Source: Pedinophyceae sp. YPF-701 (taxonomy: Eukaryota; Chlorophyta; Pedinophyceae). Taken from it: a stretch of 64,000 nucleotides of DNA. The notes below the pieces were generated by a model. It was not told the origin of the DNA. It saw only the letters and a program-made list of their open reading frames with translations, and ran no database searches. The position numbers were made by a program, and so were the translations under genes. Where the stretch lies: positions 62,001 through 126,000 of the forward strand of contig CAJZHL010000012.1 of assembly GCA_916048055.1 (NCBI GenBank), given 5' to 3'. Below, piece by piece: positions 6,204-51,593 of this stretch (its first letter is position 1; each line of letters begins with the position of its first letter).

Positions 6204-9200
6204 CTACGCCCTCATGGCCTTGGACGTCGGCTCGGGCGGCACCGTGGGCCTCACCGTCGGCCGCGTCACGGCCCGCACCGCCCCCGCCGCCGCCGCCATG
6301 GACGGTTGTGCCAGCACGTGCAGGTGCAACAACGGCCGGTCCGACCGCCAGCTCCCGGGCTCGAACACCGGCACCATGATCCCCGTGAGCTTCTCCGCGT
6401 CGGCCCCGCGCTCGCGGATGGCCTTCCCGCTCCACGCCGACAGCTCGCACCCCAGATCCAGGCTGCAGCGGTGCGTCTCAAGAACGAGCTCCACGAACGG
6501 CAGCGGACACTCCCCGCTCGACGGCGCGACCGCGGGCACGTCGTGCTTCATCAGCAGCGGGTCCAGGCTCGCCCCGACCAGCGAGATGCCCCCCAGGAGA
6601 ATCGACCCAATCTTCACCTCCTGCTCGCCCTCAATCAAGGTGCCCGACTGCACCGGCATCGGCGTGAGGTGCGCCTTCAGCGCCCAGCTCGGCTGCCCGC
6701 CGTCCCGGTTCGTCGCGGCGTGCTCGATCGGCGTGTCCGGGTTCACCAGCGCGCTCAGGACCATGGTCAGCGCCGAGGGCTTGCTGAGGATCGACAGGTC
6801 GACGGTCCGGACGCTCCCGATGAGGCCGCGCGTGCCGCCGTCGTCCATCTGGAGGTCCTCGCTGGAGCCCTCGGGCCCGTGCGGGTGAGCCCGCGCCGAC
6901 AGCTCCGCATGCCTGACGAGGTCGAGGATTCCAGTGCCGCGACGGTGCACCTCCGCGATCCACCGCGCCGTGCCGCCGCCCGCGGGGTGGCCAGCGAGGT
7001 CCCACTCCGCGAATCCGCCGATCAGGGCCTGGGCGAACGGCGAGCGCCACGTGCGCGACGCCCGGCGGCCCGCTCCAGGCAGGATGGCCAGCACAGCGTT
7101 GACGTCGCTCGCGGCCCCGGCGGCGGTCTGCGCGAGCGCGGTGGCCTCGAGCACGACGACGTGCGTGATGTTGACGCGCCAGCCGAGCAGCACCTGGAGG
7201 TGCCGGTCCTCTACTTGGCTGGCAATCAGGGACAGCTCCTCTGCCATGTTGTTCAGAATAGTGTAGAAGTGCTGCAGCTTCGGGAACGCGGCTGCGGCCA
7301 TCAACGGCGATACCGCAGGCGGGTCTAGGAGCGAGTAGCCCGGGTCCGGCTTCCGCAGAGCCATTACCATCAGCGACGATGCCATGCGCTCCAGATCGCC
7401 CCGTGTCAACTTCTTCAGGACCTCGTGCGGCAAGTGGTGCCCCGCGCCGAGCAGCCTGCTCCATGTCGTGAGCAGGGGCCCCGTGACGGGGCGATCGTCG
7501 CCCGGTTTGCGGACGCGCAGCAGTGCCTGAGTACCGTGGAAGACAGCGGACGCAATCGTCGCCGCCGCCTTGCCGCCCTGGCCGCCCATGACGCCCTCGA
7601 GCAGCTCCGGGAGCCCATCCTTGCGCCAGATCTTCTCCATGATCGGGTTGACGGCGGCCCGCGCAGGATCGCGCGGCCACACCAGCGACGTTGTATGTCC
7701 CAGCACGAGGCTGTACGGCTCGCCCTGCGGACCGGGCGCCGGCAACACCCTCGCGAAGGCGCGCCGCGCCGCCGCGTGGATCTCGGGGCCCGGACCGATC
7801 CCGCCGTAGCCAGCGAACGCCAGATAGGCCGGCAGCTCGTTGGCGACAGACAGGAGGAAGGAATGCGTGGTGGTGAGGTGCGCCACGGCAGTCATCGCGC
7901 GGCTCATGTCGAGCAGCGTGACGGCCGTGCGGTGCGCCAGGTCCCACGGCGGCACGTCGGGGCTTCCGTGCGCCCCCGCGTACGCGAGCGTCGCCAGGTG
8001 AGCCAGGGTGCTGCTGATGAGGAGCCGCAGCATCGCCGAAAGCGACCCCTCGCCGCGCTGGGGCGGCGCGCGGTCCTGGCGGCTGAGCCAGCTGTCCATG
8101 AGGAAGTGCGCGAGCTTCGTGGGGTGCCGCGGGAGCTGCACGGCGATGGGGCGCTGCACGGGCCGCGCCAGCGCAGCCCCGAGGAGGCGCGCCCTCCCGG
8201 GCCGGCAGCACACGAACAGCCGGAACGCCTTGCTCGCCTTGCTGGACCGCGAGAAGCGGATGAGCGCCAGCGTGCCCGCGATGTCGTCCTCCGGGTGCAT
8301 GAGGAGCACCCACCGGCCCGAGCGCTGCGCCTCGGCCAGTTGCGCCACGTGCTGCTGCGAACGCAGGGCGCCGCAGGAAAACACTGCGACCGCGCGAGCC
8401 TTCTCTCCGCCGCGCGCAAGCATGATGCCGACCGCACGGGCGCCCCCGAAGTCCCGGTTGGCGTCCTTGTTGACCCCCTCGATGGACGCACCCATAGCAA
8501 CAGCCGACCCGGACAGCGCATACGCCGTGTTGCGCGCCACCTGCAGGATGGCGCCAACAGGCACGCCTTCCGCGGCCTCCAGGACAACGATCGGCACCAT
8601 GCTGCGCGTGACGGCGCCGGCGCTGCCTGCAGCAGCACTCAGCATGACGTGGGTGACCGCCGGCGGCCGCGGCACCGCCGCGGGCGGTTCCTGCCCCGCC
8701 TTGAGCGCCGAGGCTTTCGTCAGCCCGTCGATGAACCACTTGGCCAGCTGCCACACCAGCGGCGGCTTCAGCACGGTGAGAACCATCACCTTTTGGATGC
8801 GCGTCATCTTCGAGCCCCACGGCTCCGGAACGCGGTCCGCGGGCGACTCCGAGGACACGGCGTCGCACCACTCGTCCTCGTTCTGCCAGACGTGCTCCGT
8901 GAGGCCCAGGAGAGCCACGCGGTCCGGGTCCCGCTCGAGCAAGGAGGCCAGCTGCTGTACCTGCAAGGTTTCGGGCAGGGCCGCCCCGCTGCGCGCGCTC
9001 AGGACCGCGTGCTCCGACACGCGCGACTGCTGCGTCGCCGGGCCCGACTCCGCGGGCTCCCCGCTCATGACGTGATCGACAAACCACCGCAGCCAATGCA
9101 CCCACTGTGCGTGCGCTTGCCCCTGGGCCTGCGCCGTCTGGTGGCCCGCCCACAGCACGAACGCGGCCACGTACGCGTCCGCATCGGCCAGGTTCCGCGC

Positions 9201-12200
9201 CACCTCGGCCACGTAGGCCTGGATGATGGGCTCGGATCGCAGCTTGCGCGTCGACTCGGACTTCTTCCCCTGCCTGTCTTCCTCCTCGTTCTCGTCCAGC
9301 GAGGTCAGCGGGGCCTCCGCAACCTTGCGGAAGATCGTCACGATGTCGTTCAGCGCGAGCTCGGCGCCGGGCACCGCGAGCGCGAGCTGTTGCAGGTCGG
9401 TGACTGCGCAGGCCACAGAGCGGCAGGCCAGACGGTCCGCTTCGAAGGTCGCGGGGAGGTTCGACATGATCGCCTGGCTCTCCTTCAGCGCCTGGTGCAG
9501 CTCGAGGCTGTCGTGCGAGGCCTCGACCAGCCCCTCCAGCACCCCCTCCACCTGCCACGCCTTCTCTTCAGCGGCGATGAGCTCGCTGATGAGGTTGATC
9601 CGCATCGACACCGTCTGCCGGCGCAGAACCTCGTTCTCCGCGTACGCCTCGAGCAGATGCGCCTCCCGCGACGGGCTGCGAATCCGCATCGCTTCCAGCG
9701 CCAGCCTCTCCTCGAGGTCCGACAGCGAGGGCCGGCAGTCGATGACATGCAGCGCGTCGTGGATCGAGTCCGGGAGGCCGACGGGCGCCCCCGGCGACCA
9801 CGCAATCAAGGCCCTGTGCCCGGGCCGGCTCAGGTCCGGCATCACGCGCCGCCACAGCCGCTCCTCGCTGCGCACCGTGTCCAGCACCGTCAGGATCGTC
9901 TCCGCGTCCTCGTGGGTCCCGGTGAGACGCAGAAGGATGTTGCCGCCCTGCTGGAGCCCGCGGATCACGTGCGCCGCCGCGGACTCGGACCCGCAGCGCA
10001 CGTGCTGCCAGTGCAGCTTCTCACGCAGGCTGATCAGCCACGCAGGCGGCCCGCCCGACGGGCACACCAGCAGCGGGACGCCCGGCACGACCGCGACGAG
10101 CATGAGGTTCGTGCGGTCCCCGGCCGTCAGCTGCAGGCTCGGCGGCACCATGGGCTCCGCGACGGTCGTGAGCAGCTCAGCAGAGCCAGGGAGGGAGAAA
10201 TGGCTCGAGTGCGTGACGTTGCACTGCTCGAGCGCGGCCCTCCACCGCTCGAGCAGGTCGTCGCGCAGGTGTCCGGGCAGCGGCCCTAGGTACGCCGCCG
10301 CGGCCCCGACCAGCGCCGCGTCGCCCCGCAACAGAGCGATCTTGCTGTCGACGGCAAGGTGCGACACGCCGTCCACCGGCGATGAGTGCGCGTGCTGCTC
10401 GAGCGCCTCCGCGAGCAGGCGCATGCGGCGGATGTTCTGCACGAGCTGCGCGCGCGCCCGCTCCTGGCGCGCCTGCATGAGCACGTGCTCGTCGCGCTGG
10501 ATCTGCAGCCCGCGCACTTGGAGCTGGAGTGTGTCCGACGCGCCCTGCTTGGCGTTGATGACCGAGTACGTGCACTGCACCGCGTACTCGCGCTGCAGGA
10601 CGCGCTGCTCCGCCATGGCAAACCGCATCTCGGCGATGCCCAGGTTGTGCACCGAGATCACCCACTGGCAAAAGGACTTGGCGGCGCGGGAGACCTGCGC
10701 GACGACGTCCGGCTTGAAGTTGTCCTGGACGACGTAGGCCTGCAGCGTCCGCACGATTTCGGGCGACAGGTTCCGCGGGTTGTACCGCTTCATGCGCTCG
10801 TGCAGCGGCAACTCGCGGTCGCACATGATACGTTTCGCCGTCTCCCAGTCGTTGTCCATGCCCAGGATCGACATGACCGCCTCGAGCACGCTCCGGACCA
10901 TCGCGGGCGGCGCGTGGTACGACCGCAGCTCGTTGACGTCGGCGTCGGGGATGGCCGAGAGGTCCTCGCGCGCCACCTCGAAGTTCACCTGCACCTCCTT
11001 CAGGTGCTTCTGCAGGTCCTCGCGCATCTGCTTGGCGACCTTGCCCGCCGTCGACACGCGGTCCTTGAGCGTCTTCATCTGCCGCGCAAGGCGGTCGCGG
11101 TGGCGCGAGGCCTGCGCGATGGCCACGCTCAGCGAGGAGATCACGTCCACCGTCTTCTCCTGGATCGGCTGGAGCTGCTCGAGCTGCGACATCGCGCCCG
11201 AGAGGTTCAGCTTGATCGCCGCGAGGTGCATCGACATTAGCATCTGCGCCACGTACTGCTCCTTCAGGGTGGACTCCGCCTGCCGCACGTATGCGCAGAA
11301 GACGCGCGCCGCGTCCGCCACGCGCGTGGCGAGGATCGGCGTCGCGTACGCCAAAGCCGGCTCCCACTCCCTGTACGACGCGACCGCGATGTCGTGCAGG
11401 ATGGCCATGGCCCGGGAGACCTTAGTCAGGTCGGTGCTGGATGCTAGTTGCTGGAACTGCACCTCGATGGACTGCATCTCCTGCCGGTGGCCCGCCTCGT
11501 CCGCGGCGGCCATAAGCGGCGACAGCGGCGGCGGCCGCAGGTGCCGGGCGATGATTGCGTTGATCGAGCTCGACAGCTTGTCCCGCCCCGGGATGCACGC
11601 GCCCAGGAGAGCCGCCCCGGCGAGCGGGGCGCAGTGCGCGATCAGCCCGGGCGCCGACTTCGCCGGCACGACGATCACGAAGCGCAGGTTCGCGCGCACC
11701 GCCTCCGCCATCTCCTCCATCAGCTCCATGCGCAGCTCCTGCATCTCGTACGTGTTGTCTCCGGCCTCGCCGCCGTCCGCCGTCGCGCGGCCCTTGCGCG
11801 GACTCGGCTCCGGGCTCTCGAACGCCTTGTCGTCGAGGCCCGGGACGAGGTACGGCGGCAGCGTCTCGGCCTCGAGCAGCTCCAGGATGGGCCCGAGGCC
11901 CTGCACCCAGTGGTGGGGGGTGGGCCCGAGACACTCGCAGCGCACGACCACCGCGCAGAGCGACTCGCCCTCGAGCGCCAGCGTGGCCGCGCGCTTGCAG
12001 GCTTCGCGGACGCTGTCCCGCTCCTTCTCGACGACGACGACGGAGCCGCGGTGAAGCAGCGCCGCCGTGCGCGTCGCCGCCATGCGCCCGGACCCCGGTG
12101 GGCCCTCAACGATGGTCGCGGCGTGTGGCCAGGGGAGCTCGAAGCTCGCGTAGATCCGGTAGGCCAGCTGCAGCGCGCCGGGCCACGTCATGCGCTCGGC

Positions 12201-15200
12201 GCAGTGCAGGCCCCACCACAGGCCAGTGTTCACGTCGCGGAGGGCCTCCGAGCCGACGGCGTCGTCGATGCGCTCGTGCACGATGTCGAGGTCGGCCTTC
12301 GTGACCGCGCGGCAGATCCCGCCCTCGAGGCGCGACCCGCCGAGGAGCCCCGACAGAGTCTGGTCAGACAGCAACTGTGGGTTGTCCGACCGCGGGCCCA
12401 CCTTGTAGTCCGTCGGGACGAGGTTCCGGACCACAGCCTGCATCGCGTGCATCCGGAGCCCGTTCTGCAGCTCCGGGTCCGGGAAGTCGAGGTTCCAGAG
12501 CACCGAGAGCGCCCGACACACGATGTGGGAGAGCTTCATTGATGACAGCGTCGTTGTGGCCGCGCTGGAGCGCTCCATGGCCCGCGCGACCTCCCTCTCC
12601 AGACCCAGCTGGTCGTTCGTCCAACGGCTGGACGACCGCGACATCATCCGCGCCTTCATCGCGGTCAGCGGCCCCTCCTGGTCGTCGCTCTCCGCGCCAC
12701 TGCCCGCCATTGTCGCCGTGCGCACCAGCGTCGGACTGCTGGGCTCGTCGGCCCTCCTCCTGAGCGTGTTGATCCGCGAGATGCGCATGCTCGGCATGCG
12801 CTGGCTGAACCGCGAGGCAGCAGCTTGCAGGGCTTGGAGGCTGGGAGCAGTCGCCAGCGCCTCGCTAGACCGATCGCCCAAAGGGAGGTGCCGGCCGCTC
12901 ACGGCCGCCATGCTCATGCTGCTCAGGGCCCGGCTCAGATCTTGGCGCGTGACCTGCCCGTGCAGGGCCTGCCCGAGCCGCGTGGCGAGGGAGCCAGAGA
13001 CCGACACCGCCACCGTGTGCAGCAGGGCGATCGCGCGCGGCACCAGCGCCGCGCTGCGCTGCGCCTTCGCCACCTGCTGGTTGGGCGAGGCGAGCTCGAC
13101 GAGGGCGCGCTGCACGGCCGTGCACACCCCGTCCGTGCGCTCCTTGTCCAGCAGGATGGCGTAGGCTGGTTCCATCACCGCTCTCACGACCTCGCCGAAC
13201 ATCTTGGTGGCCATGACCTGCGCCGGCGCGAGCCCCGGCGTCGCGAGCGGGCTCTGCTCGGCGGATACCGTCGCGAGGCGCGTCGTCAGCCGCGCGTCTC
13301 CGCGCAGGTGCGACCCGGACCCTTTGGGCCACAGTCCCTCGCGCGTGCCCGTCAGCGCAATCATCGTGCGCTGCAGCCTCAGCCGCTTCGGCCCGGAGGC
13401 TCCGACGTGATCCATCTCGCCGAGCTCGCAGAGCATCCGCACCGCGGTGATCAGGCGCGCCGCAGCCCCGCGGGCGGCAGCGGATGCGCCGCGGACGCAC
13501 ATCGCTGCAGGCTCGTGGAGGTCGTCGAGGAGCAGGAGCGCGCTGCCGGATCCGTGTGGGCGCAGCGTCGAGCTGCGGTCCTGGTGCAGAAAGGCCGCGA
13601 GCGTGCCGCTCAGCCCGACCGCCCCTGTTGAGGACACCAGAGGGTGTACGATCAGCTGGTGGTTCCCTGCCCCGCGGGTGATGCCGCGAGCGATCTCCGA
13701 CTTGCCCGAGTACGCGGGGCCGATGAGGACCGGCGCCCAGCCGGCGCGCATGTGCAGCCACGCGGCCGCCTGCACGCAGCGCGTCCCCGCGGTGTGGATG
13801 AAAATGTGCGAGCCCGGCTCGGTCGGCAGCTCGCTGCGGAGCCTGGCGCCCACGGAGGACACTGCCACCTTTGTGTGCGGGTCCGCCGGCGCCCAGGGGC
13901 TCTTTAGCGTCTCGGTCGGGTCCGGCCAGTGCACGAAGTCAACCGTGTCAGCGTCAATGACTTGCTCGAGCGGAGGGACCTTGCGCGCGAAGGCGACGAA
14001 GTTGTACGAGTCCGCCGTTTCGTCCACGAGCCTCGCCACGCTCTTGCCGACGTCCGGCTCCATCGCGCCGGCCGTGGCCCACAGCAGGCCGTAAGCGAGG
14101 CAGCACCGACCCAGGTAGTCCATGGGCGTCAGGTTCGAGTGAGGGTGGTTGCCTCGGAGCGAGATCGGCACCCGGGCCGAGAGGTCCGAGAACAGGACCT
14201 CCGCGATGCCGCACGCGCGCTCCAGCGCGAGGTGCTCCGGGCCCGGCAGCGCCCCCGGCGGCAGGTTGCTGAACGTGCCTTCCACGACAGCCTCGGCGAG
14301 CAGCAGCGAGCTCTCGGTGAGAACGCCCGCGGCGTGCAGGCTCTGTATGAGGCTGAGGCGCGTCGCTCCGAGCGTTGCGGGTCCGTTGAGGCACACGACG
14401 GGCAGGCGCGAGAGTACCCCAGGGGTCATGATGCTGATTGAGTCAGTCTCGACGGCGATCCGCGCGACCGGGTGCGGCACGATGACCGACCCGTTGCTCA
14501 GCAACAGCGTGCCGATCTCCAGGAGCGGCAGCACCGCGTCGAGGCTCGCGCCGCCCCCGCCTCCGGCGTCCCTGTCGCCGGGGGCCTCAACCTCCACGGC
14601 GAAGGGGCTCCGCAGGGCCGCGGTCAGGCCGGCGGAGACGTCGCAGACGACGATACGGCTGATGATCGCGTCGCCCTTCTCGACACGGCCGGCGTCCTGC
14701 ATCAGCGCGGACGACAGGACGCCGTGCTTCGAGGCCGCACCCCCGCCCCCACTGCCCTCCACCGACCCGCCACGCATGCCCAGGAGCTCGCCGTGGGACG
14801 ACGCGTCCAGGAACACCTGGTCCACCGTCACCGCGGTCCCCCCCTGCTCGACCGTCAGCGCGTACCCCAGCGCCCGCAGGAGCGCCGACTTCCCAGACGA
14901 CGGCGGGCCCACCACCATCATCGCGCCGCTAGACGAGTCCAGCGCCGCGCGCATCCGCTCCAGCGCAGCCACCACCTCCGCCTCGTGCGGCGCTACAGTC
15001 ATGCCCTCCCGCTCAAGCCGCGCCAGGGCGGCCGCCACCCCTGCTTCGAATGTCGCCTCAGGCTCCTTGGCTTTCCCCCCTGCCGTCTTGTCGCCGGCCG
15101 CGGCACGGTCGCGCGCCTGCGCGGCCTGCAGTGTCCCGCCGGCGAGCGACGCCTGGCTCACGAGCGACCCGGCCCTCGAGAGGTGGTCCGGGCGGTCCTC

Positions 15201-18200
15201 CTCGATGCCGTCCGTGAACACATCCGCCACAAGCGTGCGGTACAAGTCCTCGTCTGACGTGCCCGCGAGGAAGGAGCCCCAGCTCAGCTCGAGGGCCTCG
15301 GAGGCCAGCTCCATCCCCGCGCTCCCGGCGGGGTACTTCGCCTGGCCGAGGGCCACGCAGGTGCGCGCCAGCAGCAGCATCATGGCGTCCCCGCGCGGGA
15401 CATGCGGGCGCGTCGGGAGGTGCTCCGAGAGCAGCGCGACAGTCGCGCACAGCGTCCGCGCCGCGTCCTCTGCGTCGGTGACCACGAGGCTGAGCATGAC
15501 TGCGTGCAGCAGCACACCAGAGTTGCCTGTGGTGAGACACATGCGCCGCGCGTTCCAGCCGACGTGGAGCATGACGCGCTCCGCGGCGGCCTCGCCCTCG
15601 CTGGAGCCGACGCCGATGAAGATCTGCGGCTCGAACTCCATCCCGTTGTCGAGCAGGCCGGGTCGCAGCGTCTCCGTCGTCTGACTGACGGCGGCCGGCG
15701 ACCGGAACGCAGTCACCAGGCCCTGCAGCTTCTGCGCGACGTGGGAGAGCACGCACGGCGCCAGACGCTCGACGTTCGCGAGGCACAACCACGCCCCCGA
15801 CTCGATCGCCCCGACGGCCACGCGGCCCAGGGACTCGGCAGTGCCCAGCTGCACGGCACCGATGGCAACGCAGTAGCGCCCGAACGCGCCCGCGAGGGCC
15901 TTGACGGCCTCGGTTGCGCTCACGCTCCCCGGCGTCTCCTGCAGAGCGAGAACGTGGCCGTGCCCGAGCCCCGTGGCGACGGGCACGAGACCACCGAAGG
16001 CGTTGATGCCCATCAGCGGGCCGGGGTCGACGGCGGCGCCGGCGTACTCGAACCCGTATGGCAGGCTCGTGTCCAGCACGCGGACCGTCGTCTCCTTGTC
16101 CTGCTCGCCCATGTAGTACCGCACCTGGCGCACCCACTCCAGCGCCATGGGGGTGTCGGCCTGATTCGCCACCAGGCTGTCCGTCAGGTCCCGCCAGCGC
16201 AGCAGCACGCCGAGGCACGCGCGCGCCACCGCACCCGCGTGATCGCGGTCCTCCTCCTCCGCCGCCTCGACGTTGTCGTCCGCCTCCGTCCCCAGCACCC
16301 CGTCCTGCTTGGACCGCTCGCTCAGCTTCCCTCCCACAAACACCCCCTGCGCGGCGTTCAGCAGCAAGGCCTCGCGGTCCACTGAAGCCGCCTGAGACAC
16401 CCCCGGGTCGTCGTCCAATCGGCTCCCCCGCGCCCGCGCGGCCGCTTCCGCGGCGGAGCGCACCGCGTCCACCGTCTGCTCTAGGTTGGCGAGCAGGACG
16501 TCTTGCGCGGCGAGGAGGGCCTTGGCGTCCTGCCCGGCCTGCTGCCGGACGAGAGCGCGGTGGACGAGGTCGGTGAAGACGCACTGCTGCGCGAGAGAGA
16601 TGATTTGCAGCGGCGCCTGAGTCAAGTCCATGTCCAGCGAGTCGGTCGACGTGCTCTCCGACACGAGCGAGCGCCGCAGCGGCACCGCGTCCTCGACGAT
16701 CGACCTCCGAAAGCCCGCGTCCTGGTCGTCCTCCTGGTTCGGGCGCGACAGCTGCACGACCGCACGCAGCAGCGTGGTGTGCAGGGTGCGGCGGATCTCC
16801 GACACCAGCGCGGTGAGCTGCTCGGCGACGCTCGCGGGGCTGTCGACCACGCAGCCGACGGGCTTCACGAGCTGCAGCACCTCGGCGTGCCCGGCCCCGC
16901 GCACCGCGGTCACCGCGCGTCCCGGCTCGAAGCGCTTGGAGGCCGCATAAGACCCCCCAGCTGGCGTGGACGAGTCCCCCGCGTTCGTGCCGCCTTCCGA
17001 CCCGCGATCCGTCACGTCGAACAGCTCGACCGCCCCCGGGAGCACGCGTCGCACGACGTCGCGCGGAAGCTCGAGCGCGGAGCTCCCCGTTGAGATGATG
17101 TCGAGCAGGCGGTTGTCGTCGACGAAGTACAGGCGCGGGCAGTGCTCGCGCGCGTGCTCGAGGGCGCGCTCGAGACCCTCGTTGAGCGCGAGCACGCGCT
17201 GCAGGAGCGCCTTGCAGCGCGTGAGCGGGCCGCCGTCCATGCACGCCGAGGCCACGACGGGCTGCTCGCGCACCATGGCCATGATGTTGTGCCACTGCGC
17301 GCCGCAGTCCTGCACTTCGGCGTACTGGTCCGCCCCGGCGTCCGCCGACGCCGCGAACACCATCGCGACGATGCGGTACGCCTGCTGGAAGCGCCCCGTG
17401 GTCGCCAGCGAGTCCGCCACCTGACTCAGGGCGTGCTCGGTGCGCTGCAGGTCCTGCACGATGCCGCCGACGTGCGGACTCATGCTCGCGCTGTCGAGCT
17501 GCGTCTGGATGTTCTGCACCTGCTGGAGCAGGTCGGGGATGTTTGTGATGGTGGCCATGAGCGGTCCGGACGTCGCCGCGCCGAACGGGGCGCCGCCGCG
17601 CACGTCCTTCGGCCGCGCAGGCTCCGCGATCTCCAGCCGGAGGCGGTTCCACTCCCCGCGCAGCCGCATCAGCTCGCCCTGCAGCTCGGCCTCGCGTGAC
17701 GCCGTGATCCACAGTTGCTGCAGCGCCTGCTGCCCCGCGAGGTGCCAGCTCAGCAGGCGCGTCACCGCCAGCAGGGACGTCGCGAAGTCCGTCACGGTCA
17801 GCGGCGGTCGGTAGCGGTGCTGCACCGGGGCTGGCGCAGTGCTGCTCGCCGCTGAGTCTGACCGCGGGAGCCCCCGGCCCGCCAGCGACGACGGCGCTTT
17901 GGGGATTTCGGCCTTGCGAACTGCGCGCAGTGCAGTGATCTCGAACCCACTTCTCGCCGGCTCCAGCTGCTCCGCACGCGCACCGTGCATTGACTCCGCA
18001 GCGCTGTCGGGCCTCTCCGGCGACTCCGCACGCGCACCGTGCATCGACTGCGCGGCGCTGTCGGGCCTCTCCGGCGACTCCGCACGCGCACCGTGCATCG
18101 ACTGCGCGGCGCTCAGCACTGCGGGGCTCTGCGGCCGGCTCTGCACCGGGCTCTGCGCGCTCGCAGGGGACTCTGGGCGCGACTCGGCGACGTCCTCCTT

Positions 18201-21200
18201 GATCGCGTCCTCGAGCTGCATGACCAGATCCTGGCCGAGGATCTGCAGCAGGCGCGTCCGGTGCCGCGGGCGCAGCGAGCTGCTGCACAGGATGCGCGCC
18301 TGCTTGCACGCCGCCTTCCACCACTCCACCTCGACGCTCTTCTCCTTCGCCATGTTGTGCTCGTCCTGCGTCACCAGCGTCAGGTCCGTCAGCGAGTCCA
18401 GGCCGTCCCCCGGCGCGACTTCCCGCTCGAGTATTGGGGCCAGGGCGGCGTCCAGCGCCTCGACGCGCTCCTGGATCGACGCCTCGTTCGGGAGGTCCGT
18501 CCCGCCCGTCTCCGTCGTGCGCATCGTGTCGAGGAAGAAGTCCCAGGATCGCAGCGCCGTCCACAGCTTCGTCTTCTCCTCCAGGGCGCGGAACACCGCC
18601 TTGATGGTCACCGCCACGCCCTCCACCTCGGCCCCGCCGAGACGGTCCTCGTGCTTCCGCAGCGTCGTGATCGCGTCGTCGAGCTTGAGCAGGTCGATCT
18701 CCATGCGGTCGATCTCCATCAGCGCCGCGTGCGGCCGCGTGGCCGACGACGCCAGCGCGCCCATGCGCGCCCGCGTCAGCAGCGACATCGCGGCGTGCTC
18801 CTTGTCCTGCGCCGCCTGCGCCAGGCTCTGGTGCGCCATCGCCTTGAACCCATCGACGAAGTCCTGCGCGTCCCGCGACGTCGCCTCGAACTCCGTGAAC
18901 GCCGCGCGCGCCTCCGCCCACTCGGCCAACACGTCCCCGGTGGTCTGCGCCGGGCCGGGCCCGCTGAGCCGCTTCAGCAGCGCGTCCCCGCGCACCCGCT
19001 GCTTCTCGCCCGCCGCCTTCGCCCGCGCCTTCTCCTCGAGCATCGCCGACAGGTCGTCGGACGCGAACAGGCGCTCTGCCTCCTGCAGGCCCTTCGCCAG
19101 GTCCTCGAGGCGCGCGCGGGCCGACCCGGTCGGCTCGAGGTACGGCGCGAGGTCCGTCATGTAGGACAGGAAGTGCTCCATCTCGCTCGGGCGGTCCTTG
19201 AGCAGCGCGGTCGCGTCCGAGGCCGCCGCGATCAGTTCGCGGCACTGCTTGCTGATGAACCGCGCCACGAGGTCCGCGAGGCCGTCCACGACGCGCGTGG
19301 CCGCGGGGAGGAACTTGTCGCGCACGTCCTGCACGTCGAGGTGGATCAGCCCGGACCGCACCACCGTCGTCGCGTCCGCCAGCTTGGTCTGCCAGTCTTT
19401 CATCGACTCCATGTCTTCCTGGAAGGCCTTGAGGGACGTCTTGTCCACGTACCAGTGCTCGCTCCACCCGACCGCGAACCGGTGGCGGTCCGGGCCCTGC
19501 TCGAAGTAGAACGCGGTGTCGGGGTGCAGCACGGCGCCGCGGAAGTCCCGCCGCGCGCCCTTGACCACCGCGCGCACGTAGTTCTCGGGGTCCTCGCCCT
19601 GGCTCACCAGGATGCGCCGCACGGTCGGGAGGTTCTGCGGCGGCCCGCCCGAGCTGTGCCACTCCGTGTACGGCACCACCTGCTTGATGGCCACCAGCCG
19701 CGGAAACCCCGTCACCAGCGCGTTGACGCTGGCCACGAGGTGCTCGAAGTGCAGCTCCAGCGTCGACACGCGCGGTACGAGCTCCAGGACCTTGCGTGCA
19801 TCTGCCGGGGCCGCCTGATTGTCTGCAACGCGGCGAACGGGCGGAAACGAGTTAGGGTGCGGACGTGATGGGGGGGGGGGTGTTGCGCAGTGCGTCGGAC
19901 GGGAAGGGCGTATGGTGCCCTGCGCGTGGGGCGCGCAGCGGCGCACCTTTGCCGTCGACGCCCAGCATGGACTGCCGCAGCTGCCGCCGCTGCGCCGCGA
20001 ACTTGCGCTGTTCCTCGAGGGAGATTTGGCCTGGCTGGCGAAAGCGCCCCGTGAGCGATTTGCTCTGCACCTCGGGCTTCTCCTCCTCCTCCTCGACGAC
20101 CTGCGCCCTGACGAGCACGAGGCCCTGGACGCGCAGCAGCTGGCTCGTGAACGTCGTCACCGCGGTGGTCGCCAGCTGCAGCATGTTTTGCAGCATCAGC
20201 TGGTCTACCAGCCGCACGGCGCGCCACAGCTTTTCCTCGCGCGTCTGCGCCTCGGCCAGGAGCCGCGAGCGGTGCTCCCCACCGTCCTTGATCGCGCTCA
20301 GCGACTTGTCCCGCCACGTCAGTTGCGCGCCCCATGCGTCAGCCTTGGGCTTGCGCTCCTCCGCCGCGCACTGCGCGCGCACCTCCTCCACCTCCGTCGC
20401 GATCGCCCGGCCCATCGCGGCCGTCTCGTTCACCACCGTCTGCACCAGGTGGCTCATCGCGTCCGTCGCGCCGCGAATCGCCCCCTCCCGGAACTTGAGC
20501 GTGGCCTCAATCTGGGCGGGCAGAGCCGTCTTGTCGATCGCGGTGAGCGCGCCCAGGATGCCCAGCTCCTTCACGCCGGGCTTCCAGCTCCGCAGCTCCT
20601 GCGGCGGCACCACCCACGGGTTCCAGGGCCGCTGCGTCCACTTGCCCGTGCGCGAGTCCCGCTCCCACCGCTTCTCCGCCTGGTTGGCGTGCATCTCCGC
20701 GATCGCGGCGGCCGCGGCGCGGATGTGCGGGCCCAGCTGCGGGTGCCCCTGGAGCCACTGCGTCGACAGCCGGCGGCGGGCGTTCTCCAGCGCCGAGCTC
20801 CGCACGTTGTGCCGCCAGCGCTTGAAGGCCTTGAGAAGCCGAAACGACGTGAAGAACTTCATCCGCTTGATCATGCTGAACACCGCGCGGTCCTGCAGCC
20901 ACTCGGGGAGCTCCTGCGACGACGCCTCGTCGCCGTCCACCACGTGCGTCACGCCCGTCAGGCTGATTGTGAAGTAGTTGTCCGCGCGCGCCTCCTCGCG
21001 CGGGACGACCACCAGGCTGTACGGCTCCCACGACAGCGTCACCTTCGGGTCCTCCGCGAAGTTCGCGTACAGCAGCAGCCCCTCCTTCGCCTTCCCGCGC
21101 ATGAAGTACGTCACCGCCTCGGCGCCCGTGGTGATCCCGGGCGGCACCGTGTGGTCCAGGCCGTAGCGCATCGTGCTGATCTCCGCCGCCCCGCGGATCA

Positions 21201-21675
21201 CGTCGCGGATGTGCCCGCCCTGGGCCTTGGCCGCCGGGCGCCGCCCCGTGAGCGTGCCGACCGTGAGGTGCTGTGCGCCGCGCGTGGGCCCACGCAGGCC
21301 GTCGCTGAAGTCGATCTCGCGCGCGACGACCGAGTTGAGCTCCGCGACGCCGCGGTCCGGCGGGACGATACCGGCGTCCTCGAGCGCGACGCCGAGGCGC
21401 GGGCGCGGCGACGGCGGCGGCAGCTGGTACGTGTCGACGTCGGCGCTGACGGTGGTCGGCCCGAGCTGGGGAGGCGAGCCAGCGAGCACGGCCTCCGCGT
21501 TCTTCGCGTGGACCAGGCTGCTCGGGAACGTCGTGCGCGGCGGCCCTCGCGAGGACGACTGGGCGAACGACCGCGCGCCGAAGAGCCGGGACATGGACGA
21601 CGAGTGCAGGGGCTGGGTCCTGGCGCGGTCAGGACGCGCGGCGTCCGCGGCGGAGTGCGATGCCGCTAGATCCAT
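6204..21675 (-). CDS. Divergent dynein heavy chain with degenerate AAA1
   Basis: Two exons on the minus strand: 21675-19947 and 19822-6204 (intron 19946-19823, phase 1), about 5,115 residues. The start is the first ATG in the open frame and is uncertain. The N-terminal tail includes a helical FFTSFRLLKAFKRW segment; the linker follows, then the AAA ring. AAA1 is recognised by LPYGFEY and SGAW, but the P-loop (canonically GPAGTGKTE) reads ETPGSVSATEA near residue 1869, and Walker B (CFDEFNRI) reads CLANVERL. AAA2 (GPPSSGKS, about 2212), AAA3 (GPAYSGKSE, about 2610; Walker B LLLLDDL) and AAA4 (GPPGSGR, about 3148) look intact. The stalk and microtubule-binding domain lie near 3450-3650 (LRSYHAPP, then WETAKRIM and FCQWVIS). 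AAA5, AAA6 and a C-terminal domain follow. It is probably an axonemal or cytoplasmic dynein-like protein with reduced or no AAA1 ATPase, recalling divergent human DNHD1; that assignment is not proven. Confidence 0.85.
17971..18115 (-). repeat. 54 bp tandem repeat inside dynein exon
   Basis: Units begin at 17971, 18025 and 18079, exactly 54 bp apart, and the copies are nearly identical. Each encodes an 18-residue Ser/Pro/Glu-rich unit (MHGARAESPERPDSAAQS-like) without breaking frame. The third copy is partial and degenerate. It sits in a low-complexity insertion in the linker/tail part of the heavy chain, where insertions are tolerated; length variation between strains would be expected. Confidence 0.9.
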
Positions 21676-22958: not shown

Positions 22959-24365
22959 TCAGTCCCACCAGTAGCTGACGGAGAACGACGGCGACAGCGA
23001 CCGCACGTAGTGCCACCACTTCGGCGGCACGTAGAGCATCTCGCCCGGCCCGATCACGCACTCCTGGAACGACGCCCCTGACAGCAGCGGGAACTCCCCC
23101 GCGTCGGGGCGGTCCAGGTCGACCCGGGACGTGTTGGTGTGCAAGCCGGACGGGTGCGGGTACAGCGCGTCGGACTGGTCCGGGCTGTACAGCCGCACGT
23201 ACTTGCGCCCGACCACCTGACACAGCAGGTTGTGGAAGGGGGGGTCGTAGTGGAGGGGTGTCACGGTCCCGCCCGGCCCGAGCCACGCGTTCACCGCGCG
23301 CACCTCGCCCTCGCCCAGGGAGCAGTAGTCCGGCGTGGCGACGTCGCGCGCCAGCGCCGGCACGTGGTCGAAGAGGGTGTATTGCGCCAGGTACAACTTC
23401 TCACCCCCCCCCGCGCCCCCGCCGTGAATGTGCCGCAGGAGGTCGCGCACGGGCATCAGCCGCGTCGCGAACGTCTCCGACATGTAGTTCCCGCGCTCGA
23501 CGGGCACCGTCCTCAGCCCCGCGACCCCGTCCAGGTACGATGGGTCGCGCCACCGTGTCAGCGCCGGCCAGTGGTCCATCGCGCCTCGGATCACCACGGG
23601 CACCCCGGGGGCCATGTACGCCGTCAGGAACGTCTCGAGCGACGGCGCAGGCGCCGCTGGCACGGGGCTGCCGCGTGCGCTGTCAAAGGACCCCGGGGGG
23701 AGTGCGGGAGCGTCGTCGTCGTCGTCGTCCGCGCGCGCGGCCCCGCCGGCTTCATCCAGGTCCGGCGACCGCGGACGCTTGCGCCCCGCCGACGTCTCGG
23801 AGGCGGGTCCGGGCTCCGAGGTGTGCGCCGCGGCCCGGTCCTGCGCAGTCGCCGCCAGCCGGTCGACCAGAGGGCGCGCCGCTGGCCCGCCGAGCATCGT
23901 GGCCATGTCGCATTCCTTGAGCATGGCCGTCCAGGGCCCCGCGCCCTCGTCCTGGCGTCGCGGCGGCAGCGCGCACCACGCGGCGAGCTTCAGGCACGTC
24001 GCGAGGGAGAAGAGGTCGCGCCACTGCTCGGCGACGGTGCTCCACTGGCCGGTGTGGAGGCGCTGGTGCGCGTACTCGCACAGGACGTCGGCGTACGTCA
24101 TCGCTCGCGACTCAGGCGACGTTGGCGGCACAGGAGCGTCGGCGGGGAAGGACGCGGCAGGCGGGGGCAGCTCGCACAGCAGCGCGACGCACCGCTGCAG
24201 GATGTCCGCGACGACGGGCTCGCCGAGGGTCTCCGCAATGCCAGAGTGGAGCGCGTCGTACACCGCGCGGCCCTCGGGCCCGGCCAGGTACTGCTGCACG
24301 GCACTCAGCATGGAGGCGCGCCCGGCCGCGGGGCCCTCCGCGTCGGGCACGGCCTGGTCCGACAT
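22959..24365 (-). CDS. KDM8: JMJD5/KDM8-like JmjC oxygenase
   Basis: A single exon of 468 residues. The C-terminal half is a JmjC domain of the JMJD5 (KDM8, plant JMJ30) type: HYDP gives the Fe(II) ligands His372 and Asp374, GRKYVRLYSP includes the likely 2-oxoglutarate-binding Lys388, and KWWHYVRSL supplies the distal His452. Numbers are by my count and the His-to-His spacing matches human JMJD5 within one residue. The protein ends in SFSVSYWWD, a family hallmark. The N-terminal third is helical, and a disordered Arg/Asp-rich linker with a possible nuclear signal (GRKRPRS) joins the two. Family members are nuclear 2-OG oxygenases reported as arginyl hydroxylases. The start codon is only 57 bp downstream of the stop of the SH3BGRL-like gene on the same strand. 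Confidence 0.92.
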   Translation of the reverse strand: MSDQAVPDAEGPAAGRASMLSAVQQYLAGPEGRAVYDALHSGIAETLGEPVVADILQRCVALLCELPPPAASFPADAPVPPTSPESRAMTYADVLCEYAHQRLHTGQWSTVAEQWRDLFSLATCLKLAAWCALPPRRQDEGAGPWTAMLKECDMATMLGGPAARPLVDRLAATAQDRAAAHTSEPGPASETSAGRKRPRSPDLDEAGGAARADDDDDDAPALPPGSFDSARGSPVPAAPAPSLETFLTAYMAPGVPVVIRGAMDHWPALTRWRDPSYLDGVAGLRTVPVERGNYMSETFATRLMPVRDLLRHIHGGGAGGGEKLYLAQYTLFDHVPALARDVATPDYCSLGEGEVRAVNAWLGPGGTVTPLHYDPPFHNLLCQVVGRKYVRLYSPDQSDALYPHPSGLHTNTSRVDLDRPDAGEFPLLSGASFQECVIGPGEMLYVPPKWWHYVRSLSPSFSVSYWWD

Positions 24366-24422
24366 GGGCGGAACTAATGGTGGGTCGCTCGGGTGATGGG
24401 GCCGGGAGCGCGGCGTGCTGTG
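24366..24422 (-). other. 57 bp intercistronic gap
   Basis: The SH3BGRL-like stop (TAG, 24425-24423) and the JMJD5-like ATG (24365-24363) are separated by 57 bp on the same strand. That is too short to hold a separate 3' UTR, polyadenylation site and promoter comfortably, so a shared dicistronic transcript or overlapping transcripts is likely. Confidence 0.7.
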
Positions 24423-26662: not shown

Positions 26663-29600
26663 ATGCCCGTGCTGCGGGAGGTGCTGGTTGGCAGCGGCCC
26701 GGACAAGGGGCGCGACGTGGAGCTGCCCGGCGAGCGAGACGTGCGGCCCGCGGAATTCACGTGTCGGAGTGGGAGCGAGTCCGGTGAGGGCGCGTGCTCT
26801 GACGCGAGCCACACGCTGTACTTCGAGATGGCGCGCAGCTGAGCCCGGCAACGTTGGGGTCTCGCCGCGCGGCGCTCGTGACGCGAGGCTCACGGACTGC
26901 GACGCGTTGCTGCGCTGCAGGATGTGTGGTGTTTCAGGGGCCCACGCCGGGCGACCAGAGGACGCTGTTCTGGTCGCGGAGGGCGAGAGGCGAGATGGAG
27001 CTGCTGGAAACGAGCTCGCTGTGGCCGTCGCTGCGAGGGAGCTCGGTCGTCCTGCGTGCCGCGGACGGCATGACGCCGTTCATGGCCGTGGATGTGCGCG
27101 CGCAGAGTGCGGGGGGCGAGGCGCTGCGGCTGTACGTGCTCACAGGCGCCGGCGTGTGTTGGTCCATCCCCGCTCTCTTCCCCCGCGAGGCCGATCCGCG
27201 CAGCTCGAGCAGGCCGGTAGAAAGCCCAGGGCGTGATTGGACGAGGGCCTGGCCGCAGGATCTCCAGGGACGCTTCACCAGCCCGGCGGAGGAGCGAGAG
27301 CAGTCCACGCCGCAGGCGGCGATCGCGAATTTGGCTGTCGAGCACGCGACGCGCCGTCTCCTCATCCCGACAGTCGCGGCGCTCGCCGAGGTGTCGGGCA
27401 TGGCGGTGTGCAGCGGGCGCGTGGTCCTCGCTGGCAACGCCCCGGACGGCGCGGGCGTCGTCGTCGCCATCCCGTGCGGCTACATCGACTCGGACCGCCC
27501 CACGGCTGGCGAACCGTTCTACGAGCTCCAGGTGAGCCACGACCCCTGCCCATCCCCACCGCTGCCTTCCATCCCATCCCTCGACAGCTGTGTTGCCGGG
27601 AGCCGGCACCCAGACGTCACAACGCTGCGCCAGCGCCTCGGCCGCGGTGCATGCGGCCCGCGGGCCGTCGCAGAAACGCAGGCGCTCACTCCCCCCGGAC
27701 ACCCCCCCCCCCGCAGCACTCGGAGTCCCTACCCCAGAGCATCTACAAGCGCATCTTCGGCGCGCCCGGCGGGCCGTCCGTGGCAGCGGTTGCGGCCCTG
27801 CCCACCGCGTCCCCCGTCCTCGCCGTCGTCCGTTCGTCCGGCGCGCTCGAGATATGGGACGTGGAGTTCAGCGACCGCCTCGCCAGCACGTCCACGCCGG
27901 CCTGCGACGGCGCCGTGCTCGTGTGCGAGGACGGGCGCGACGCGGCGCTTGTCGGGATCACGCACTCGCTTCCCGACGGGCGGTTCGCGGGCATGTCGCT
28001 GTACTGCGTCACGGCGGACGGCGGAGGCTCCACCGCGACGTCCGCGGGCATCGCGCAGAAGTGGCACTCCGCGGACGTGCGGGGGGAGGCAGTTGCGATC
28101 GCACGCGCCGGGCCCGGGCGGACCCCGGCCGTTGCGGTGCTGCTGCGGGCCGGCGACGTCCGCGTGTGGTCATCTGCGGACGCGCGCGCCCGCAGCGGAG
28201 ACGTCGAGTTCGAGACGGTGCGCGAGCGCGCCGAGGAGGCCGTGTCGTGGGCGCGCGGGAGCGGTCCGAGGGCGGCAGTCGAGCGCGTGGCGGTGCGGGA
28301 GGCGACCTCGGACGAGGCAACTGCTATGGTGCTGGAATCCCTGTGCGCCGCTGGCGTACCCGCAGCGGCCGAGAGCGCGCGCCGTGTGGTGACCGTGGAC
28401 CCGGAGCGCGGCGTGGACCCGGAGCGCGGCGTGGCCCCGCAGGCGGTACAGGACGCGTCGGTGCGGGCGTCGCTGGAGTGGCAGCAGGGTCATGTCGCTG
28501 TTGGCCTGGCGCGGGACCCGGCGGGGGCGGTCGTCGTTGGTCGCGCGGGCGGGATCCTCGGGATCGGCATTGCGAGCACGTCGGCGTACGGCGGCGCGGA
28601 TTCGGGGCTTGCCGAGGCATGTTCCGTCATGGTCAAGTTGATTGGGCCGACACTGCGCGCTCGAGTGTCGGTGGGCGCGCTGGCAGGGCGGGACCTCGCG
28701 GGGCTCGTCGAGGACCTCGCAGCGTCGCTGACGCGCGGGCCGGAGCTCGTGGGGCTGAACCAGCGCGAGCGCGAGGAGGCGGGCAGGTGGCGGGCGCGCC
28801 TGCGTGTCCGTGTGCTGATGGCGGCGCGCAGGACCGTGGACAGCCTCGGCGGGTCCGCTGCGGCGACGGTACGGGCGCTGGCGATGCAGCTGCTGCCTAC
28901 ACGAGAGGGGACGCAGGAGCTGCGCCCCGGGGACGTCGATCCGCGGCAGAAACTGCTGGGTGCAGCAGCAGCGTCAGTGCTCGCAGAAGAGCGGGTGCAC
29001 GAGGCGCTGGCGCTGGCCACCCTGCTGAAGCTGCTTCCGCGGACCGGCGGCGACGACGGCATCGCGGAGGTCTATCCGGACGTCCTCGGCGTCCTGCAGC
29101 GCCTGCTGGTCGTGCGGTGGGTGCTACGCCTGCGCTCCGGCGGTGCTGCGGCTCCGGACATCGATGCGCGGCCCCGCGGCCAGAGCCCGCTGACGGCGTC
29201 CGTTGGCGCTCGTGCAAGCCCTGCGCGAGCGCTCCGTGGGACGCCGCCGCTGTGGGAGCTGTTGGAGGCGGTGGGGGAGGGGGGGGTGCTGCACGTGCCG
29301 CGCGAAGGGGTCTCGGCGACGGCGCTCGGCCGCGCAGTGTGCGCGGCGTTCGTGTCTCTCGGCGACGATCTCCCGGGCATGTTGTCGTCGCTGTCCGTCG
29401 GCCTCCTGCGCAAACGGCCTGAGGACGCCACGCGTGGTTGGTTGAGTCAGCTCGCCGCGCTCGGAGCCCCGGGCAGCGCGTCGAAGAGCGAGCCCGCGCT
29501 GCTGCTCGCCAACGCCCTCGGCATGCTCGGCACCGTCCAGCGCCACGGCTCGGCCAGCAAGGCAACAGACCTGATGCTGCGTGCTGCTCGCAGCGCTGCA

Positions 29601-31193
29601 GCCACGGCCACCCAGGGCGACCGAGCCGCGCTGGACCGCTTCCTCGACCTGCTCAAGTGCCTAGTAGGCAGCCATGCGCGCCTCGCCGACGACCTCGCGG
29701 AGGCACGAATCTTGCTGGAGCTGTTTGAGCACGTTCGCTATCTTGGCATGGCGGTGGTGTTCTCTCCGCTTCTCGACGCCGCGCTGCAGGCGGCGCTCGC
29801 TCACAGCGCGGACAGCGAGGACGCGCGGACGCTGGCTTCGACCGTGTGGGCGCGGCGCTTCGCGGTGGCGCTGGCGGACTGCGACTACGCGTCCGCGTAC
29901 GCCAGCATCGTGTGCGCGCCCGGGTGGGTGAGCGGCGCAGCGCGGGACTGCCTCGAGGACCTCGTGCATCAAATGCTGTCGCGTGGGCTCGTCGAGGAGG
30001 TCTGCGGACTGCCTTGGGCGGGAACGCTGCCTTGCTCCCAGCCAGGCCAGACGCTGTGCACAGCCGCTCAAGTCGCCGACGTGCTCGCGCGGAGGGCGGA
30101 GCACGCGTCGGTTGCGGCCTCCAAGTGCCGCTACCTCACGCTCTACGCGTTTCACGCCACGCGCCACAACTTCCGCGCCGCAGCGGCCGCCATGCTCCAG
30201 TACGCACGGCGCCTGTCCGCGGAGGCCCCGGCGGGCGCGGAATCCGCCGACGAGGCCCACCAGGCCCTCATCACGTGCATCAACGCGCTCCACCTCGTGC
30301 CCGAGGAGCAGCGCTGGCTGCCACTGCCGCAAGAGTCCCCGGCAGACGCGGCTGTGGCCCAGCGGCAGCGACACCGCGACGCCGGCAGGGCGACCCGCTC
30401 GCTCGTGACGCTGTCGGAGCTAGAACAGGACGTTGCGCTCGCCCGCGCATGTCGCGACGCGACGCGACGCGGAGCGCAACTTCCGCTCAGCCGGGACCTG
30501 TCGCAGGTGGTTGAGCGCCTCGTGCAACTCCGGGACTTCGCGGCGGCGACGGACCTGATCTGCGGTGCCGCGCGAGCCGTGCCACCTCGCGAGGACCCAC
30601 AAGTGCTGCGCGGGCTCGCATGCAGGGCCGTCTCCGAGCTGGCGGAGGTCTGCGCAGAGCAGCAGCGCAACGCAACGCCTTCGCGTGCGGCTGCACCACG
30701 GAAGGCCTGGCACCAGCTGCGCGTATCGATTGAGTCTCTGCGGGGCGCTGCGCCGGCGCTCGACGTGGTCGCGGCGGCTGCGGACGCAGTGCTGGGCAGC
30801 GGCTCATTGGGTTCGGCACACAAGTGGCCAGTTGCCTTGCCTCGCTGGCTGCGGGACATGCTGGTCAGCCCGCAGCGCGGCACGGCGGGCTTCGCTGGCC
30901 CTGGGCACGACCCTGCTGCTCTTCTGCGGCTGCTGCTGCGGCAAGGGATGCTTGCAGATGCCGCAGAGGTGGCGCTCGAGTGCTTGCGTGCGGCGCACTG
31001 GGCGCTGGACCAGCCTCACGCTGCGGACCACGCTGGCGCGCAGTGGGTGCCGTACGACTTGCTCGCCGAGCTCGCAGGCAGGCTGGAGGAGGCGGGAGAA
31101 AGGAAGCTGCGGAGAGCTCTGCTAATGGCCTTGGTCGATCGGGGCGACCAGCTTGCCGTGTTCCGCGCCCAGGGCGTCGGACGGGGATGGTAG
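26663..31193 (+). CDS. NUP160: Nucleoporin NUP160
   Basis: Three exons, 26663-26783, 26921-27531 and 27717-31193, phases 1 and 0, give about 1,402 residues, close to human NUP160 (about 1,436). The N-terminal part is beta-propeller-like (GPTPGDQRTLFW, LYVLTGAGVCWSI, SGALEIWDV), and from about residue 450 the protein is alpha-helical. The most diagnostic stretch is YLTLYAFHATRHNFRAAAAA, followed by CINALHLV and RWLPLP, which matches the conserved helical block of NUP160 in plants and animals. NUP160 belongs to the Y complex (NUP107-160) that scaffolds both faces of the nuclear pore. A small in-frame repeat (DPERGV twice) lies near 28400. The first exon is short (40 codons) and rests on splice phase and propeller continuity, so it is the least certain part. 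Confidence 0.85.
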
Positions 31194-31820
31194 GGGGCGC
31201 TGTGATGCAGCATCAGCGCGCCGTGGCATGAATGACTGACGACGTCGCGTCAACAGAAAACCTCAGAGGGTTTTGAATGCGCTCGCAGCTTGCAAAGGAA
31301 GTGTTCGACACACCCGCGCAGGACACGCAACGTGCAGAGGCCCATGGGCCGCTGGCAAACGAGCCTGGGCGTCGAGACGGTCGTGGGACTGATTCGTGTT
31401 ACAGTACAGTATTACTGAGTCAGCACTGTCTGTCTAGCCGTGCGGGCATCCGCACAGTTGCGACGTGAAGACGTCCCCCTGATCTAGGGGGGAAAAGGGG
31501 GGGGAGGGAAGGCTGGTGGGCCGGGAGGATGGCTGCGGCGTTGTGGTGGTCAACGGGCCTTAGAGGGAATTTAGGGGTGGGGTGGGACGGGGGGGAACCA
31601 AGGGGGCGGCGATGACTCGTGCCCGCCGAGAAGAATGCGCCCAGCGCGAATGCATGACCGTCATCCTCATGGTGTCACGCATCCACGGAGGGGTTGCGGG
31701 CGACGGAGCTGGGGCGGCAGGTTGCGCCTCCCACCTTGCGAGCGTCACGGCGTCAAGCCTGCGCGGCTGCCGAGCCCCGGAGGACCCGCGCGCGCGCCGC
31801 GCCGTGCAGTGAGCGCGTGC
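31194..31820. other. Intergenic region between convergent genes
   Basis: About 0.6 kb separating the NUP160 stop from the stop of the minus-strand PAS protein gene. It contains G/A-rich runs around 31490-31600. No gene or structured repeat is supported; it is most likely the two 3' UTRs and a spacer. Confidence 0.4.
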
Positions 31821-50825: not shown

Positions 50826-51593
50826 CGGTCTGCGAGGCCCATCAAAGTAGTTGCTGTTGATGGCAGTGATTGGTGTGCAAGTGCTTGGGGACCGCCGCGG
50901 ATCGCACCTGCGGCTGCAGCCTGTGATGCACGACGCACACCATCTCTCGATCAGTGCCGCTTGGGATGCACGGTCGCACAGCCTTGTTGGGTCGTGCGCC
51001 GGCACTGCAACGGCAGCTGTCCGTTTCCCGGCGACGGGTTAAAACACCGCTTGCACGGCAGCCTGTGCACCGTCGTAGCAGGACCGGCCATATGGCCGAC
51101 GCCCTGTTGCACAATGCTGGAGGCCATCACGCAAGAGGGATGTGTCGCACTGACCCCCCTGCTGCGCCATGCCGCGTGCGTTCGTTGCTCTGCGCGCAGA
51201 ATGTCCACGTGATGATTCTCTGGGTCAAGTGAGAGGTGATCACGTGCGTCGTGCGCGAAAGGATCAGTCGCTGCGACGAGCCGAGCCCACCTGGACCCAA
51301 CGACTTGGCCGTGCCGTCGGAGACCGGGCGCCTGCGGCGTTGCTTTAGCCGCTTCTGCGGAGAATAGACATGACGAACACCGGGCTGCGCTCAAGTGTCG
51401 CTCAAATGCGCCTGATGCGCGTTCGGCGGGCCCACCAGCCCTGAGCATAAATTCCCCTCGCTCGCCCAAGGCTGAGACCCCATCGGCTCTTCAACCCTGC
51501 GTTGCGTCGCAACACATCTGGAACGTCAAGCGCATTCGTACGGCGCCGCCCCGTCGACCTGCTAAGCCACGGGACGCGGCGCTCGCGGGCCAC
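50826..51593. other. Intergenic region, ANK-2 to ANK-3
   Basis: About 0.77 kb, less GC-rich than coding sequence. Upstream block A is not recognisable here, so ANK-3 does not share that upstream sequence. No gene is supported. Confidence 0.45.

Follow-up and report, generated by a model that had tools for sequence, protein, structure and literature searches.

A very divergent predicted dynein heavy chain with an inner-arm-type tail and an apparently inactive AAA1 site in a pedinophyte alga

The dynein motor described in PMC12338079 divides its labor among the sites of its AAA ring, in which AAA1 powers the cycle, ATP is held at AAA2, and regulation falls to AAA3 and AAA4. Single-headed inner-arm dyneins, as presented in PMC10266980, are positioned via divergent N-terminal tails. 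Two further systems bear on heavy chains that may have left this scheme. DNHD1 is characterized in PMC8754002 as an orphan dynein-related 'ghost gene', possibly one that is becoming a pseudogene, and the non-catalytic kinesin-14 heads Cik1 and Vik1 are described in PMC4338441 as binding microtubules without what ATP binding and hydrolysis need. Among the literature matches listed, which were judged by titles and the starts of abstracts and come from a corpus with most subscription journals outside it, we recognized none on a dynein heavy chain whose AAA1 is dead. Here we describe, in a 64,000-nucleotide stretch of the genome of Pedinophyceae sp. YPF-701 (the window), what the sequence indicates to be a very divergent dynein heavy chain variant with an inner-arm tail and a dead AAA1. 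AAA1 is regarded as dynein's engine, and a long, open, codon-biased gene that has lost it while retaining tail and microtubule-binding tip would suggest that the fold can persist as a structural part; such a gene offers a natural test of the role of the ring without AAA1.

The gene occupies positions 22032-6204 of the window on the minus strand, on which all of its features given below lie, and comprises at least two predicted exons. Exon 2 (6204..19822) encodes the linker, AAA ring, stalk and C-terminal region and is part of a body frame, 20156-6204, that is open for 4,650 codons, the first 111-112 of which are probably noncoding. The Pfam families DHC_N2 (98.3 bits), AAA_6 (47.9 bits) and MT (43.6 bits) match the body above their cut-offs and in the order of a dynein heavy chain, and AAA_7 (22.1 bits) and Dynein_heavy (15.1 bits) match it below theirs. 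The DHC_N2 match places the linker at 16770..17765, and N-terminal of it an in-frame tandem repeat of SMHGARAESPERPDSAAQ covers 17970..18113 (54 bp, 2.7 copies, 96% matches). Exon 1 (19947..21675) is taken from Met120, the first Met and a guessed start, of the open frame 22032-19852; it encodes the N-terminal tail, and its frame has no Pfam match. The two are separated by a 124-bp intron predicted from sequence (19823..19946; GTGCG...TTGCAG), which is of the GT-AG kind, in phase 1, and has a CTAAC element 33 bases ahead of its 3' end. The predicted splice joins both frames in phase and leaves the final stop as the only one, giving a protein of ~5,115 residues if counted from that first Met, with further exons upstream possible. 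An upstream exon that would encode an inner-arm-type tail, joined to the body via a phase-matched predicted intron, is newly recognized here.

The kinship of the tail comes from phmmer comparison with PDB chains and from matches in paralogues of the same genome, which define at 20689..21183 a domain common to single-headed inner-arm dyneins. Eleven PDB chains match at E<=1, with 8glv_Mm best (1.2e-14) and DNAH6 represented by three chains (2.6e-10 to 6.5e-9), led by 9d2f_T. The same region matches sequence upstream of the linker in five paralogues (E 6.7e-17 to 6.9e-6). Two of these five were typed, one on C19 that is nearest to 8glv_Fm and DNAH6, and one on C9 that is nearest to 8glv_Mm and then to others including DNAH3/7/12, so that the tail shows the DNAH6-type and DNAH3/7/12-type homology of a single-headed inner-arm chain. 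Single-headed inner arms sit on the doublet together with actin and p28 or centrin, and a gene for a p28-family light chain is also present in the genome. In tail type the protein is like DNAH6-type single-headed inner-arm dyneins, represented by IDAg as described in PMC10266980, by paralogue g5 on C19, and by PDB chains 9fqr_Xz and 8j07_g5; like those of g5 and g7, its microtubule-binding domain is short and lacks an extra loop. The body is less easily assigned. Its strongest PDB matches, among those listed, include 8glv_Fm (1.6e-38), DNAH6 (1.2e-35) and DNAH2 (1.6e-35), the last two practically equal, and DNAH6 and DNAH2 may be the best named matches merely as slowly evolving relatives. Among the paralogues, of which six were compared as long frames and the other eight in pieces, the DNAH6-type g5 scores best. 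No paralogue in the tree described below is more than 20% identical to the window protein. What separates the protein from the DNAH6-type chains aligned (g5, 8glv_Fm and 9fqr_Xz) is that they retain AAA1, whereas it has lost the Walker motifs of AAA1 and AAA4.

The sequence-only reading from which this work started had proposed that both Walker motifs of AAA1 are gone between preserved flanks, and MAFFT alignment with 14 paralogues bears this out. All 14 carry GPAGTGKTE and DEFNR, where the window protein reads TPGSVSATE and ANVER. The P-loop equivalent (15909..15929, GSVSATE aligned to AGTGKTE) has therefore lost its glycines and Lys: letter by letter against six paralogues, GPAGTGKT becomes TPGSVSAT without gaps (G to T, P to P, A to G, G to S, T to V, G to S, K to A, T to T), and only two of eight letters, the P and the last T, are kept. 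That reading had the Lys-Thr pair replaced, which holds for the Lys; the Thr survives as the final letter of the loop. Despite the kept Thr, an equivalent without the Lys and glycines should not form a P-loop. The Walker B equivalent (15765..15800, SGAWLCLANVER, ANVER aligned to DEFNR) has changed D to A, E to N, F to V and N to E and kept the R relative to the same six paralogues, so that the Asp-Glu pair is indeed replaced. The NP..GR stretch that follows DEFNR, NPGYAGR in most paralogues, has no counterpart in the window protein in the alignment with the 14. The flanking elements VKALAGAFG, SGAW and VLSHVAQ align in frame; both motifs fall inside the interval first assigned to the lesion, 15740..15960, and another flank cited for it, LPYGFEY, lies just outside at 16064-16044. 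With residues kept in all 14 paralogues gone, ATP hydrolysis at AAA1 is very unlikely, in line with the original suggestion, and the protein is most naturally read as structural or regulatory. Since a functional AAA1 bearing GPAGTGKT and DEFNR was not found, the gene is best regarded as a heavy chain by descent and not as a proven motor. An AlphaFold run on residues 1320-1720 without an alignment returned a pLDDT of 41.5 and no usable model of AAA1.

Several ways in which intact motifs could be hidden were considered. A P-loop in another frame was sought at 15601-16100, where GK[ST] and an Asp-Glu motif are absent from all three minus-strand frames. A spare or alternative AAA1 exon was sought in a six-frame search of the genome with the AAA1 family, and none of the 16 matches, a lower bound that corresponds to 15 genes, is an orphan. 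A frameshift was sought in the alignment and is not indicated, because the letters on both sides of each motif align in frame. Neither an alternative splice form nor a true P-loop elsewhere, possibilities raised together with the original claim, thus turned up in the frames, exons or gene copies searched. A sequencing, assembly or splicing artefact that masks an intact AAA1 is consequently extremely improbable: a single assembly is the basis of the analysis, which leaves room for it, but the flanks and the interior of AAA1 align in frame, the other frames hold no motif, and the genome search found no exon to spare.

The remaining sites of the ring present a mixed picture. The P-loops of AAA2 (14886..14909, GPPSSGKS) and AAA3 (13698..13721, GPAYSGKS) are kept, as is the loop GPPGSGR of AAA4 (12081..12104), in agreement with the earlier statement that AAA2-AAA4 retain nucleotide-binding loops; that statement did not mention that AAA4 has lost its Walker B, which reads VRCE where most paralogues have SDTQ or similar. 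The AAA4 loop resembles the GxGR/K of the paralogues, and at AAA2 the window gene has the canonical GK that three paralogues (g1, g8 and g12) do not. AAA3 also keeps the Asp-Asp of its Walker B (13509..13538, LLLLDDLHEP). Paralogue g4 does not figure in this comparison for the Walker B of AAA2 or for AAA3 and AAA4. From these motif states, AAA2 and AAA3 could plausibly bind nucleotide, and ATP hydrolysis would occur at AAA3 at most. The full P-loop and Asp-Asp Walker B of AAA3 suit a motor that is still active, with AAA3 powering it in place of AAA1. We know of no precedent for a dynein powered in this way, and consider it very improbable here. Known dyneins, as described in PMC12338079, are driven by AAA1, with AAA3 in a regulatory role, which argues against such an exchange.

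How far this protein has departed from its relatives is apparent in the complement of heavy chains around it. The genome assembly (27.9 Mb in 32 contigs) contains 15 dynein heavy chain loci by six-frame search with the linker family PF08393, and the 16 matches to the AAA1 family PF12774 fall in the same 15 genes, one of which is split; both counts are lower bounds. In the linker search the window gene is an outlier at 85.6 bits, compared with 311-493 bits for the 14 other heavy chains. In this genome one very divergent dynein accompanies a normal complement of 14 dynein motor genes. A tree placement, which the sequence-only reading had proposed as a check, was run on 14 rows consisting of the window gene and 13 of the 14 paralogues, the split chain g4 being left out. 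It gave the window gene an end branch of ~10 changes per site, no supported neighbor and no supported set to which it belongs, and the amino-acid composition of the protein is odd.

We examined the constraint along the motor against six of the 14 paralogues (g1, g2, g3, g5, g6 and g7), each available as a single long frame that begins at the linker and runs to the end; seven paralogues represented by ~5.5 kb each, and g4, which is split in two frames, were left out of these domain tables. In all, the window protein keeps 228 of 686 columns that are invariant among the six. The best-preserved motor domain is the microtubule-binding domain at the stalk tip (10662..10976, borders set by hand), which retains 10 of 13 invariant columns, the figure for the 14 other stretches combined being 218 of 669 (Fisher p=0.0015 uncorrected, ~0.02 allowing for 15 stretches). 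The other stretches keep 17-45%, apart from the short AAA3-AAA4 link with 0 of 4, and in the microtubule-binding domain held-out paralogues keep a similar share of the invariant columns to that of the window protein, 0.81. Mean BLOSUM62 scores agree, at 1.48 for this domain versus 2.14 between paralogues, and at 0.13-0.94 versus 1.7-3.5 for 12 other domains. The contrast at the tip rests on few columns and on hand-set borders, and it is not significant in a position-free scan, in which 1607 of 5000 shuffles contain equally good runs; an equally good conserved run also occurs at residues 1322-1373, before AAA1. A second alignment of the microtubule-binding domain with 11 paralogues, in which 9 of 14 conserved columns are kept, was not used because it contains wrong segments for g1 and g2. 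The stalk coiled coils are poorly conserved (2 of 12 and 5 of 18 invariant columns). Indels across coils and tip are few, with 3+1+0 inserted and 0+0+2 missing residues, so stalk length seems to be kept. AAA1 is the most conserved domain between paralogues, with identities of 0.66 and 0.60 in its two parts. In the window gene these parts keep 25 of 70 and 14 of 57 invariant columns, a share no larger than in other domains, and the extra constraint on AAA1 therefore seems to be gone. In raw identity only the microtubule-binding domain (0.28) exceeds the first part of AAA1 (0.27). Residues found only in the window protein number 146 in AAA3 and 183 in the C-terminal region.

Several of these features would be expected of a decaying gene, that is, a redundant heavy chain on which selection has been relaxed and which has little function left, in a genome that is GC-rich and poor in stops (G+C of the window lies between 63 and 75% across 2-kb steps). 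The long end branch and odd composition, the survival of only about a third of the invariant columns, the window-only residues, the tandem repeat inside the coding frame and the scan without a significant conserved run all favor this account. With the ring strongly diverged and AAA1 not set apart from its neighbors, general relaxation could explain much of the pattern. Against decay, there is no stop in the 4,538 codons of exon 2, much more than chance would give (log10 P ~-27 from the stop rates of five other frames, or ~-37 from base composition, both rough), and none in the joined frame before its end. G+C at the three codon positions is 0.71/0.49/0.92, steady along the gene including AAA1; its third-position G+C (GC3), 0.92-0.95, equals or exceeds the 0.80-0.92 of five other window genes, and falls below the 0.97-0.98 of seven paralogues measured, a shortfall that again suits decay. 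The open frame and codon pattern argue against a pseudogene and do not argue against relaxed constraint. Retention of the AAA2 and AAA3 P-loops, although so few invariant columns survive elsewhere, counts for a functional gene, and on balance we consider decay a rather unlikely explanation.

We favor, at about an even chance of being right, a functional heavy chain of the single-headed inner-arm type that has lost its AAA1 ATPase and acts as a microtubule tether, spacer, brake or scaffold. In its favor count the AAA1 losses against all 14 paralogues, the inner-arm-type tail, the retained AAA2 and AAA3 P-loops, the long open and codon-biased frame, the tip and stalk length that look preserved, and the p28-family gene. 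The tail would anchor the protein to a doublet of the axoneme or to an assembly intermediate, and the ring would hold a structural nucleotide at AAA2 or AAA3. Were AAA1 unable to bind ATP, neither a swing of the linker nor cycling of the stalk register would be expected, so that the tip would hold the microtubule without ATP-driven release, as a passive tether, spacer or brake that generates no force. A tip that still binds would make a static link, and a tip that does not bind would leave a scaffold. Cik1 and Vik1 offer an analogy in the way they work, each having, in the description of PMC4338441, a motor homology domain that binds microtubules without ATP use. They differ in being kinesins that form heterodimers with a catalytic partner, whereas the window gene encodes a dynein with a tail of the single-headed kind; with that difference, it would be a dynein analogue of Cik1/Vik1.

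Another possibility, which we regard as doubtful, follows DNHD1, to which the sequence-only reading had suggested the gene may be akin: the gene would be an old orphan paralogue, a 'ghost' dynein that is ciliary and serves flagellum assembly or scaffolding with no motor or tether role. The likeness to DNHD1 is by description only, as a full-length dynein-like orphan beside a normal heavy chain set (PMC8754002) and of similar length, 4,753 residues according to PMC9916431 compared with ~5,115 here when counted from the guessed start. DNHD1 variants are reported in PMC9916431 to accompany deformed sperm flagella. In zebrafish, a knock-down reported in PMC9749982 reduced both the number and the length of cilia and left ciliary motion unimpaired, in keeping with a role other than that of a motor. 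The microtubule-binding tip of the window gene looks preserved, however, and the gene has no supported place in the tree. None of the best 60 of 77 PDB matches of the body is named as DNHD1. Should the kinship be real, the gene might give DNHD1 a counterpart outside animals. The tether-like reading of the gene can also be widened, more speculatively and as a rather unlikely extension, to a standing class of pseudo-motor dyneins in flagellated protists, single-headed inner-arm chains in which the AAA1 engine would have been lost and the tail, stalk length and tip would be selected, and which would cross-link doublets as ATP-insensitive tethers or strain sensors.

Six short patterns compared with viral contigs confirmed no relatives there. 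Elsewhere in the genome a second fast-evolving heavy chain (L030, from G000:C13:334363 onward) has an end branch of 3.44 in the same tree; its AAA1 motifs are intact (GPAGTGKTES and DEFNR), and its AAA3 Walker B reads LHLKDVNLP. The window itself includes a 1,404-codon open frame on the plus strand (31578-35792) with no Pfam match at E<=0.01, opposite which runs an open frame of 1,296 codons. Four further open reading frames have no evident link to dynein: a KDM8-like JmjC/cupin frame (22962-24422, minus), a Nup160/120-like frame (27240-31193, plus), an ankyrin-repeat frame (51569-53605, plus) and a suppressor-of-forked (Suf) frame (57739-61092, minus). Another, on the minus strand at 35708-38668, carries TmcB-type TPR and PAS domains.
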